A DNA stretch of 64,000 bases from an uncultured Caulobacterales bacterium (lineage in GTDB: Bacteria; Pseudomonadota; Alphaproteobacteria; Caulobacterales; Caulobacteraceae), in NCBI GenBank assembly GCA_903884425.1, contig CAISEP010000016.1:248001-312000 (forward strand), written 5' to 3'. The notes below the pieces were generated by a model. That model was not told the origin of the DNA. It saw only the letters and a list, made by a program, of their open reading frames with translations, and made no database searches. A program made the translations under genes and the position numbers. Positions 32,270 through 35,737 of the stretch are shown piece after piece. The first letter of the stretch is position 1. The number at the start of each line of letters is the position of its first letter.

Positions 32270-33312
32270 CACCTCTCGTGAAGCGGCTCGGCGTGGCCCT
32301 CGTGGTCGTCGCGGCCCTGATCGCCATCGCCTTTGCGGTCCTGCATCGCGGCAGCATCCCCTATGCCACCCTGGAGCAGCGGTATGCCGCCCCCGCGTCC
32401 CGCTACCTCGATCTGCCGGACGGGGTGCATGTGCATTATCGCGACGAGGGCCCGGCCACGGCACCGGTGATCGTGCTTGTCCACGGCTTTGCCGACTCCA
32501 CCGCCACCTGGGACGCCTGGATCGCGAGCCTGAAGGGGCGCTACCGGGTGATCAGCCTCGACCTGCCCGGGCACGGCCTGACCCGCGCCCCGCGGACCTG
32601 GCCCGCGGGTACCGGACAATATGCGGACCTTGTGGACCGGGTCGTCGTGGACCGCCTGGGGGTTCGCCGCTTTGCCCTGGCCGGAAACTCCATGGGCGGG
32701 GCGGTGGCCTGGACCTATGCCCTGAGCCACCCGGACCGCCTGACTGCCTTGGTGCTGGTGGATGCGGCGGGCTGGCCGGAGGCCCCGCGCAAGCCGGGCG
32801 GCCGGTCCGACGGGGCCCTGGCCTTCCAGATGCTGCGCACCCCCTGGGGACGCTGGCTGCTGAGCCACATCGACCTGCGCCCGGTGATCGCCCAGGGACT
32901 GCGCAAGGCCTTCCACGACCCGTCCAAGGTCACGGACGCCATGATCAACCGGTTCTCGGACCTCAGCCACGCGCCGGACCATCCGGCCATCATCCTGGGC
33001 ATGCAGGGCCATCCGGGCATTCGGGCCACGCCGGAGGCCATGGGCAGGATCCATACCCCGACCCTGGTGATGCACGGGGTCGATGACCGGCTGATCCCGG
33101 TGGAGGCCGGTCAGCGCTTTGCCGCGACCATCCCGGGGGCGGAGCCGATTCTCTATCCGGACAGCGGCCACACGCCGCAGATGGAAATCCCGGACCGGTC
33201 GGTGGCGGACCTGATCGCCTTCCTCGCCCGCCATCCCGACGGCGGCGGGCCCCTCCCCGGTCAGGCGGCGGGGCCGTCCCCCGCCACGTCCCCGTCGGAC
33301 AAGGGGGCATAG
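32266..33312 (+). CDS. Membrane-anchored alpha/beta hydrolase
   Basis: This 348-residue protein starts with a single membrane segment (LGVALVVVAALIAIAFAVL) and then an alpha/beta hydrolase fold. It shows the oxyanion HGF (LVHGFADST), nucleophile Ser142 in GNSMGG, Asp in GVDDRLIP and His in SGHTPQME. The substrate is unknown; such anchored hydrolases in the periplasm include lactonases and lipases. The last 52 bp overlap the 3' end of the convergent cation-efflux gene, so its Pro/Ser-rich tail is coded on both strands. Confidence 0.87.
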   Translation: MTPLVKRLGVALVVVAALIAIAFAVLHRGSIPYATLEQRYAAPASRYLDLPDGVHVHYRDEGPATAPVIVLVHGFADSTATWDAWIASLKGRYRVISLDLPGHGLTRAPRTWPAGTGQYADLVDRVVVDRLGVRRFALAGNSMGGAVAWTYALSHPDRLTALVLVDAAGWPEAPRKPGGRSDGALAFQMLRTPWGRWLLSHIDLRPVIAQGLRKAFHDPSKVTDAMINRFSDLSHAPDHPAIILGMQGHPGIRATPEAMGRIHTPTLVMHGVDDRLIPVEAGQRFAATIPGAEPILYPDSGHTPQMEIPDRSVADLIAFLARHPDGGGPLPGQAAGPSPATSPSDKGA

Positions 33313-34325
33313 ACCTCGGGAAAGGCCCCGCCATGGGGCTCGGCCCGGCCGTCGGGGTCGGGGTGGATCAGGATGTCCGCCGCCGGGAACTGCGCCAGGA
33401 TCCGCCGCTCTGCCGCCACGACGATGCGGTGGGCGGCCTCCAGGCTGAGGGCGGGGTCCAGCTCCATGTGCATCTGCAGATGGACGAAGGGCCCCGACGC
33501 CCGGGACCGGAGCTGGTGCACGCCCCGGACCTGCGGATCGTCCGCGGCCAGGCGCAGGATCGTCTCCCGGTCCTCCTCGTCCAGTTCCCGGTCCATCAGC
33601 TGGGCGGCGGCATCGCGGAACACGTTGATCGCACCCCAGACCAGCCAGCCGGCCACCACCAGACCCGCCACGGCATCGATCCGCGGCTCCCGGAAGATCA
33701 TCACGCCGACCAGACCGACGAGGGCGGCGATGTTGCAGACCAGATCGGCGAGGTAGTGGGCCCGGTCCCCGTGGATGGCCACGGACCCGGTCTGGCTGAG
33801 CACGCGGGACTGCTGCCACACCAGTCCGCCCACGGCGACACTGGAGGCGATCAGCACCGCCACCCCGTACAGCTCGGACTCCACCGGCTGCGGATGCAGG
33901 ATCCGCCCGACCGCCTCCTGGGTGATGACGGCGGCGGAGGCGAAGACCAGTCCGGCCTGCATCAGGCTGGCAAAGGCCTCTGCCTTGCCGTGGCCGAACC
34001 GGTGTTCCGCATCCGGCGGGGCGGCGGCATAGCGCACGGCGAAGAAGGTGGTCAGGGCCGCCACCAGATCGAGGGCGGAATCCCCCAGGGAGGCTAGCAT
34101 GCCCACAGAGCCGCTGGCGATCCAGGCCGCCCCCTTGGCCACGACCAGGGCCGAGGCCAGGGCCACGGACAGGCGGGTGACGTGCCCCGTCAGGGCCACG
34201 CTCTCCTTGGCCGTGACCCCGCCGGGTCGGGCAGACCCGTGGCCATGCCCGTGTCCGTGCCCATGTGCGTGCCCGTGTGCGTGTCCGTGCCCGGCCTGTG
34301 AAGTGTGCGGTGCCATCGGGCTCAT
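33261..34325 (-). CDS. Cation diffusion facilitator (FieF type)
   Basis: The 354-residue protein is a six-helix divalent metal/proton antiporter. Metal-site motifs SLGDSALDL and GDRAHYLADL (DxxxD and HxxxD) and RFGHGKAEA are present, with a C-terminal cytoplasmic metal-binding domain. The N-terminus has an uncommon His/Gly-rich stretch (about residues 13-30) encoded by an imperfect 6-bp-type repeat near 34245-34300. Zn, Fe or Cd export is likely; the metal cannot be fixed. The start at 34325 is chosen; an ATG three codons later is possible. Confidence 0.9.
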   Translation of the reverse strand: MSPMAPHTSQAGHGHAHGHAHGHGHGHGHGSARPGGVTAKESVALTGHVTRLSVALASALVVAKGAAWIASGSVGMLASLGDSALDLVAALTTFFAVRYAAAPPDAEHRFGHGKAEAFASLMQAGLVFASAAVITQEAVGRILHPQPVESELYGVAVLIASSVAVGGLVWQQSRVLSQTGSVAIHGDRAHYLADLVCNIAALVGLVGVMIFREPRIDAVAGLVVAGWLVWGAINVFRDAAAQLMDRELDEEDRETILRLAADDPQVRGVHQLRSRASGPFVHLQMHMELDPALSLEAAHRIVVAAERRILAQFPAADILIHPDPDGRAEPHGGAFPEVYAPLSDGDVAGDGPAA

Positions 34326-34430
34326 ATACTGCGCGATCCGGGCGCCTGCACCCGCAATAATGTCGAAATCCGGAGGCGCTCGAGGTAAACCTTAACTGTC
34401 GGCATGCCTAGATACGGTCTGGACCGTCGG

Positions 34431-34446
34431 GTCCCCGCACGGGGAC
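34431..34446 (+). promoter_or_regulatory. Hairpin in the leader of the citrate synthase gene
   Basis: GTCCCC-GCAC-GGGGAC is a perfect 6-bp stem with a 4-nt loop, 31 nt before the ATG. A second imperfect symmetry CGGTC-TG-GACCG lies at 34414-34425. They could be an operator plus a leader stem; the function is not known. Confidence 0.4.
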
Positions 34447-34477
34447 ACCCGCCGGCTTGACGACGGAGCTTTTCTGC

Positions 34478-35737
34478 ATGGCCGCCCTCTGGATCACCGC
34501 CGACGAGGCCCAGGCGCGTCTCGGCGTTCGACTTCAGACCCTCTATGCCTATGTCAGCCGGGGGCTGATCACCGCCCGTACCGACGAGACCGATCCCCGC
34601 CGCAGCCTCTATGCGGCGGAGGACATCACCCGGCTGGTACAGCGCCGCAGCCGCGGCCGCGAGGCGGTGGCCCAGCGGGCGCTGGATCACGGGGACCCGG
34701 TGCTGAGCTCGGCCATCACCGTCATCCATGACGGCCGGCCCTGGTACCGGGGCCGGGACGCCATCGCCTGGGCCGATACCGCCTCCCTCGAGGAGACCGC
34801 CCGCCTTCTTTGGGACTGCGACGAGGACCCGTTTGTCGGCCTGGTGCCGCACCCCTCCACCGGGGTCGGGGGCGATGCCCGGGCACGGGCCTTTTCCCTG
34901 CTGGCCTACCGGGCGGCCAATGATCCCGCCACATCCGGCCGCTCGGACAAGGCCCTGCGCCGGGAAGCCGCCTCGATCATGATCGACCTGGTGGACGCCA
35001 TGTCCGGCGCCGCCCGCAACGGCCTGATCCACGAGCGCCTGGCCAAGACCTGGCGGGTGGACTCCGGCAAGGCCGACATCCTGCGCCGCTGCCTGGTGCT
35101 GGCCGCCGATCACGAACTGAACGCCTCGACCTTCGCCACCCGGGTGGCCGCCTCCACCGGCGCGTCCCTCGCCGCCTGCGCGCTGGCGGGGCTCAGCACC
35201 CTGTCCGGCCCGCTGCACGGGGGCATGACCCTGCAGGTGGCCGCCTTCATCGCCGAGTGCCGCCGCACCAACGATCCGCGCAGCACCGCGGCCCTTCGCC
35301 TGAGCCAGGGCCTGGACGTGCCCGGCTTCGGCCAGCTGGTCTATCCGGCGGGGGACCCCAGGGCCCGGGCCATTGCCCAGGCTCTGATCTTCGCCGACGA
35401 CCTCCGGGAGATCGCCGTGGCCGGGGAGAGCGTGACAGGGGTGGCGCCGAACCTGGACTTTGCCCTGGTGGCCGCCACCCGGACGCTGGGCCTGCCCGTG
35501 GACGCGGCCTTCACCCTGTTCACCGTCGGACGGGCGGTGGGCTGGTTCGCCCACGCCATCGAGCAGCGCACCGCCCAGCGGCTGATCCGCCCGCGGGCCA
35601 GCTATGTGGGTCTGGAGCCGGGATATCTCGACCGGCAGGACATGGTGTTCGAGGCAGCGCCGGCCCCGGCCGTGGTCACGGACCCGGAGGTCCCTGCGGA
35701 GGGGACGTCCGAAGCCCTCGCCGCCAGCCACGGCTGA
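34478..35737 (+). CDS. Citrate synthase family protein with N-terminal helix-turn-helix
   Basis: The 419-residue protein starts with a MerR/excisionase-like DNA-binding segment (WITADEAQARLGVRLQTLYAY, residues 5-25, then SRGLITARTDETDPRRSLY). This is fused to a citrate synthase domain from about residue 80. The catalytic elements are visible: His in AADHELNASTF, His in SGPLHGGM and Asp in APNLDFALV. The ATG at 34478 lies 9 nt after GGAG; the TTG at 34457 is less likely. The fold suggests citrate or 2-methylcitrate formation, with a possible DNA-binding role that I infer only from the N-terminus. Confidence 0.86.
   Translation: MAALWITADEAQARLGVRLQTLYAYVSRGLITARTDETDPRRSLYAAEDITRLVQRRSRGREAVAQRALDHGDPVLSSAITVIHDGRPWYRGRDAIAWADTASLEETARLLWDCDEDPFVGLVPHPSTGVGGDARARAFSLLAYRAANDPATSGRSDKALRREAASIMIDLVDAMSGAARNGLIHERLAKTWRVDSGKADILRRCLVLAADHELNASTFATRVAASTGASLAACALAGLSTLSGPLHGGMTLQVAAFIAECRRTNDPRSTAALRLSQGLDVPGFGQLVYPAGDPRARAIAQALIFADDLREIAVAGESVTGVAPNLDFALVAATRTLGLPVDAAFTLFTVGRAVGWFAHAIEQRTAQRLIRPRASYVGLEPGYLDRQDMVFEAAPAPAVVTDPEVPAEGTSEALAASHG

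Follow-up and report, generated by a model that had tools for sequence, protein, structure and literature searches.

Citrate synthase (CS)-like genes in excess of the standard one have been described in the Caulobacterales. Caulobacter crescentus carries two of them side by side, citB and citC (CCNA_03757/03758), and the cell-cycle role belongs to CitA, its standard citrate synthase (eLife 2020 e52272, PMC7083601). In that study, CitB complements an E. coli gltA mutant and CitC fails to do so. Regulators built on enzyme folds are also an already known kind; the nearest idea is FapR, a repressor that senses malonyl-CoA through a hot-dog fold of enzymatic origin (reviewed in PMC5052256). Our searches of the literature, covering open-licence full texts, returned no paper on a regulator that joins a helix-turn-helix (HTH) to citrate synthase, or on its operator. 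Here we analyse a gene of this HTH-CS architecture within a 64-kb stretch of DNA, referred to as the window, together with its relatives. From gene order and identities, CitC is most likely an HTH-CS protein too, and CitB/CitC a set of paired genes of the kind described below.

Domain architecture and leader of the HTH-CS gene

The HTH-CS gene occupies a single open frame and encodes two domains.

34478..35737, + strand: HTH-citrate synthase gene, 419 aa, single open frame
34490..34651, + strand: MerR/HTH_17-type winged helix, residues 5-58 (Pfam, AlphaFold2, Foldseek)
34532..34558, + strand: recognition helix, residues 19-27, near-invariant throughout the family (family alignment)
34700..35623, + strand: citrate-synthase-fold domain, residues 75-382 (Pfam, AlphaFold2, PDB match)

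An alternative TTG start at 34457, where the related genome G001 has an ATG, would add seven residues (426 aa). The start at 34478 is at least as likely, since a GGAG lies 9 nt 5' of its ATG.

The preliminary description had recognised a MerR/excisionase-type HTH in the N-terminal part of the protein, and structure prediction bears this out. Pfam matches HTH_17 (1.6e-4) and MerR_1 (5.7e-3) at residues 5-57, both under the gathering cut-offs. AlphaFold2, run with 41 family sequences (mean pLDDT 88), predicts a clear winged helix with helices 8-15, 19-27 and 47-59 and strands 33-35 and 43-46, the recognition helix being intact. Residues 61-73 form a linker of low confidence that leads into the citrate-synthase fold. 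When modelled separately with 28 sequences, the HTH reached a pLDDT of 85. A Foldseek search with the HTH alone retrieved SoxR-DNA, GlnR-DNA, RacA-DNA, BldC, Xis and CbpM, all weakly (E at least 0.02, about 0.02-0.1), and many MarR-type winged helices were also among the matches. The long antiparallel dimerisation helix that follows the HTH in MerR was not encountered in the model, in which the last helix ends at about residues 59-67 and is succeeded by the linker and the CS fold. The latter matches Citrate_synt (PF00285) at 3.1e-56, and its best PDB match is CitA of Mycobacterium tuberculosis (28% identity in the structure match).

The gene stands alone, flanked by a convergent DUF2780 gene downstream and by the following features upstream.

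33261..34325, - strand: divergent cation-diffusion-facilitator (FieF-like) gene, upstream neighbour (Pfam)
34381..34413, no strand: leader block, probable promoter by its conservation in three species of the genus (alignment)
34414..34446, no strand: symmetric elements, present, unconserved and unsupported as an operator

The FieF-like protein bears a long N-terminal His-Gly repeat, HGHAHGHAHGHGHGHGHG, which is possibly a metal-binding tail.

The symmetric elements had earlier been proposed as an auto-operator. They do exist (ACGGTC/GACCGT at 34414-34427 and GTCCCCG/CGGGGAC at 34431-34446), but lie where the leader varies most and were not found in G003 and G001, which are the closest species. 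We rejected the proposed role because of this lack of conservation. The operator typical of the family (see below) is missing from the leader.

Active site of the window protein

Three positions of the active site deserve separate mention and are listed with their equivalents in other citrate synthases.

35216..35218, + strand: His247, equivalent to pig catalytic His274, kept (alignment)
35333..35335, + strand: Gln286, in place of pig His320, E. coli GltA H305-306 and C. crescentus CitA H303
35456..35458, + strand: Asp327, equivalent to pig catalytic Asp375, kept (alignment)

Alignment with the GltA of the same genome shows that, of seven residues with a role in substrate binding or catalysis, the window protein keeps six, among them also His212, Arg295, Arg352 and Arg371. 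The catalytic His and Asp that had been reported as kept are thus indeed His247 and Asp327, but at the second catalytic His the motif GFGHRVY has become GFGQLVY. The same Gln is found in four genomes (the window's, G001, G002a and G003). In C. crescentus CitA, the substitutions H303A and H303W abolished complementation of E. coli gltA (PMC7083601). Since the residue lost here occupies the same position, loss of synthase activity is likely, and we regard it as quite likely that the window protein is catalytically inert as a citrate synthase; the Gln could still leave residual activity. The cell has another citrate synthase in any case: a standard gltA lies apart from the HTH-CS gene at G000:C1:116649-117743 of the same genome. 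The possibility that the protein lacks a recognition helix or is the sole citrate synthase of its cell can therefore be set aside.

A protein family with a shared operator

HTH-CS homologues were found in 31 of 60 related genomes, counting a match only if it included the HTH; among 299 genomes sampled across the phylum, 37 carry the gene. As the preliminary description had surmised, such proteins are present in databases, under the annotation 'citrate synthase family protein'. A tree of 57 rows groups them in a single clade (support 100/100), separate from GltA and from the neighbouring CitB-type citrate synthases, and places the window protein in a branch of 18 Caulobacterales proteins (support 100/98). 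The recognition helix, xTLYAYVSRG, is near-invariant even in members that retain just two of the seven active-site residues, and the window protein, with this helix in its winged helix and a fused CS domain, fits the family architecture. One protein of its sub-branch, G002a (L064), is the sole member there with a clearly altered recognition helix (QTLQSYVDRG), and its DUF2332 site (see below) is degraded (11/15).

For the analysis of upstream regions we used a first set of 52 genes. It leaves aside L003, L004 and L005 (contigs shared with G003, G001 and G017), the near copies L017, L020, L021, L023 and L024, the fragment L025, G040 (short locus), G008 (split over contigs) and other plasmid matches. 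The search upstream of these 52 genes revealed a leader sequence common to the family, GTCAATCTTGATCAATATAATCAATAT. It defines a 23-bp operator, TCAATNTTGAT-N7-ATCAA, close 5' of the HTH-CS start codon and mostly 22-60 bp from it. In its core, TCAATNTTGATN7ATCAA, 15 bases are specified. Outside the window's branch (34 loci of the first set), the core is matched at 15/15 in 19 loci and at 14/15 in 10, the other five scoring 13, 12, 11, 10 and 7 of 15; for three Deltaproteobacteria/Myxococcales rows the start codons are unreliable, so that their scores of 12, 13 and 14/15 (184-234 bp away, on the other strand) are not trustworthy.

The operator was then tested on 30 new loci, that is, all those of the 299-genome sample that had not already served to define it. 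The core was perfect in 26 and matched at 14/15 in one, giving 27 of 30 with at most one mismatch. Lower scores were obtained for G343, G112 (no operator) and G078 (spacer variant); G343 shares its genus with two members of the window's branch. Across 27 whole genomes, all 10 perfect core matches sit at the HTH-CS gene, and six sites with one mismatch lie away from it. Those in G005, G028, G013 (two) and G033 lie within coding frames or for other reasons do not occupy a promoter position, and were discarded as targets. A 12/15 operator-like site was also observed near the downstream end of the HTH-CS gene of G031 (L082:6404, - strand), the own leader of which scores just 10/15.

The spacer varies in sequence and is constant in length, at 7 bp, as would be expected of a dyad bound by a dimer. 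Three TCAAT repeats, spaced about one helical turn apart, likewise lie within the operator, and on their account head-to-tail binding, which has reportedly been seen for BldC, could take the place of an inverted-repeat dimer.

Active-site retention and divergent neighbours

Retention of the active site accompanies retention of the operator. Of the 58 genes with an operator (at least 13/15), 54 retain all seven residues, versus 7 of the 25 without one, a count that ignores kinship. Outside the window's branch, G031, G078 and G112 have lost both operator and active-site residues. A plasmid copy of B. cenocepacia contradicts the coupling, having neither operator nor divergent partner and yet all seven residues. 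Our reading of the coupling is that the pocket works for the switch and would be free to drift where self-regulation is gone. Within the first set, the seven residues are complete in 16 of the 18 HTH-CS proteins that adjoin a second CS gene and in 15 of the remaining 16; in the window's branch, where no such partner adjoins the gene, they are complete in only 4 of 18, the other 14 having lost one to five.

Because most members outside the window's branch keep all seven residues, catalysis is possible in them. The family could accordingly be seen as bifunctional trigger enzymes, working (2-methyl)citrate synthases that repress their own gene. The complete active sites of operator-bearing members and a fold that matches active synthases speak for this, whereas the Gln at the second catalytic His of the window protein speaks against it, as does the failure of CitC, by inference a family member, to rescue E. 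coli gltA where CitB succeeded (PMC7083601). On balance we consider it unlikely.

An ordinary extra isoenzyme, with the HTH as an inert or structural add-on, would be consistent with the strong PF00285 match and the database annotation. It is difficult to reconcile with the pattern of conservation: mean identity within the window's branch is higher in the HTH than in the CS domain (0.64 versus 0.51; 0.59 versus 0.55 in the CS-paired group). Given also the family-specific operator, the presence of gltA in the same genome and the loss of His320, this explanation is very improbable.

HTH-CS genes are mostly divergent from a metabolic gene. A second CS gene adjoins them in 18 of the 52 first-set loci, and a divergent CS is present in 24 of the 30 new loci, the gap measuring 61-108 bases in 21 cases. 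In three cases (L188, L189 and L190 of G147, G089 and G336), the CS gene is about 1.1 kb off, with room for an intervening gene, and the HTH-CS operator is perfect. In all 17 neighbouring CS proteins compared, the catalytic Asp is replaced by Glu (NVEF), for example in L039:318-1406 (-). For CitB of C. crescentus, probably of the same type as these Glu-bearing partners, activity in E. coli has been published.

Such adjacency might suggest that the HTH-CS protein and its divergent partner form a heteromeric citrate synthase, in which the former would be non-catalytic or would tether the complex to DNA. The window's genome has no such partner, though, and several lineages pair the same operator with a neighbour other than CS, which makes this explanation scarcely tenable. 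The operator stays constant and the divergent neighbour varies among CitB-like CS, CoA-transferase family III, DUF2332 and FAD-NAD(P)-binding proteins; one HMGL-like neighbour accompanies a variant operator. A constant site beside a changing neighbour is typical of a divergent regulator, not of an enzyme subunit. On the strength of the shared operator and the usual divergence from a metabolic gene, we consider it highly likely that the HTH-CS family consists of transcription regulators with a CS-fold sensor. The earlier idea of a regulator that binds DNA, responds to a metabolite and stems from citrate synthase is thereby well supported for the family, through its recognition helix, operator and divergent pairs. 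The window protein itself is probably not an active citrate synthase.

The window's branch and a candidate target in trans

No recognisable own-gene operator is present in any of the 18 members of the window's branch, where the best score is 11/15 and some half sites occur. The leader of the window gene reaches 8/15 at best, and none of 672 tiles of 190 bp covering the 64-kb window attains 12/15 of the core. A FieF-like homologue lies directly upstream of HTH-CS in 14 of the 18 members, and in five paired relatives it lies behind the CS partner. From this placement, a CS partner was probably deleted between the two genes; the window's genome has none. The FieF-like neighbour may itself be a partner or target of HTH-CS, but no operator was found for it.

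Comparisons among the genes of the window, G003 and G001 gave dN/dS values of 0.02-0.07 in the HTH part and 0.02-0.05 in the CS part, so that the gene is not a relic. That it is decaying towards loss after deletion of the partner, as the multiple active-site losses of the branch and the missing operator might suggest, is hardly credible in view of its intact frame, these low values in both domains and the same Gln in four genomes.

Scanned with the family core, the window's genome contains no site with fewer than two mismatches and two sites with exactly two, one of which precedes a DUF2332 gene on a contig other than that of HTH-CS. The other (C23:51051) precedes a frame that resembles a fragment of a mobile element. 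The pattern TTGAYN7ATCAANCTTGA is matched perfectly once in the genome, at G000:C20:27549-27571, 31-53 bp before the DUF2332 gene. G001 carries a perfect site there and G003 one with a single mismatch, and in the three closest genomes, which are a single lineage and not three independent tests, the best match of the pattern is the DUF2332 promoter.

More broadly, the dyad TTGA-N9-TCAA, which overlaps a -35-like TTGAC, occurs in 9 of 14 DUF2332 promoters from genomes with HTH-CS versus 0 of 10 from genomes without it (p=0.002), with the qualifications that three of the nine (G000, G001 and G004) represent one genus and that the DUF2332 genes from genomes lacking the regulator are remoter homologues, a few of which follow closely on another gene. 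The promoters of G003 and G002 miss the dyad by one base. In G024 the HTH-CS gene is preceded by a full operator, and the sole other one-mismatch site of that genome lies before DUF2332 as well; in two Roseomonas-type plasmids (Pseudoroseomonas cervicalis and Roseomonas mucosa) DUF2332 is itself the divergent neighbour of HTH-CS, with a perfect operator. Control of gltA was rejected as an alternative, since 11.1 kb around the gene in the window's genome contain no TTGA-N9-TCAA dyad and no core above 11/15.

Pfam gives no function for DUF2332. Its members share the motif LEIGASAGLN (L139:2334-3401 (-), L059:4848-5903 (-) and L096:397-1470 (-)), which we presume to resemble SAM-dependent methyltransferases.

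With moderate confidence, we propose DUF2332 as a target of the window protein. The protein itself is likely a one-component regulator acting in trans, with a former citrate synthase as its sensor and DUF2332 as its best candidate target.

Proposed mechanism and comparison with known systems

In the mechanism that we propose from these sequence comparisons, a dimer of the family protein, dimerisation being suggested by the CS fold, would bind the 23-bp site. It would thereby control its own gene and probably the divergent neighbour, because the operator lies mostly in the short gap between the two. The sequences themselves establish the architecture, the lost residues, the conserved operator and the site at DUF2332, whereas DNA binding, ligand, direction of regulation and the loss of activity are inferred. 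A ligand held in the old active site, presumably oxaloacetate, an acyl-CoA or their condensation product, would switch DNA binding, the first two being suggested by analogy. In the window's branch, the neighbouring CS and the own operator have disappeared and the active site is decaying. Purifying selection on both domains suggests that the window protein has probably persisted as a catalytically inert regulator in trans, for which the DUF2332 gene, through the site before its start, is the best candidate target. It is reasonably plausible that citrate synthase founded a widespread family of transcription factors with a conserved operator, that the old active site responds to a metabolite of central carbon metabolism, and that one Caulobacterales branch is a dead enzyme without self-regulation, rewired in trans on DUF2332.

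If so, bacteria would read their oxaloacetate or acyl-CoA status directly at promoters. Many proteins now filed as citrate synthase would gain a testable function, DUF2332 a first lead, and a single bacterial order would offer every natural stage between a complete active site and an enzyme without activity. The failure of C. crescentus CitC to complement a citrate synthase mutant would also find a possible reason.

Among known systems, CitB/CitC and the window's genome have in common the extra CS-like genes of Caulobacterales; the latter lacks CitB. The portions of eLife 2020 e52272 concerned with CitC describe no HTH and no role as a regulator for it. The GltA-type synthases and M. tuberculosis CitA (PDB 8gm9, 6wgy) share the fold of the window protein; the second catalytic His is kept in GltA-type synthases (8giw and the GltA of the same genome), whereas the window protein has Gln. 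To our knowledge, none of these synthases bears a DNA-binding head. The MerR/BldC/Xis proteins (SoxR, GlnR, RacA, BldC, Xis) have the same winged-helix topology, but HTH-CS proteins possess neither the coiled coil nor any known sensor domain of MerR and carry the CS fold instead. FapR differs from the HTH-CS family in HTH type and operator, and its sensor fold is not citrate synthase. The likeness lies in the plan of the molecule: a DNA-binding domain joined to a fold that comes from an enzyme and binds a CoA ester, acting as a dimer on its own regulon, as set out in a review (PMC5052256).
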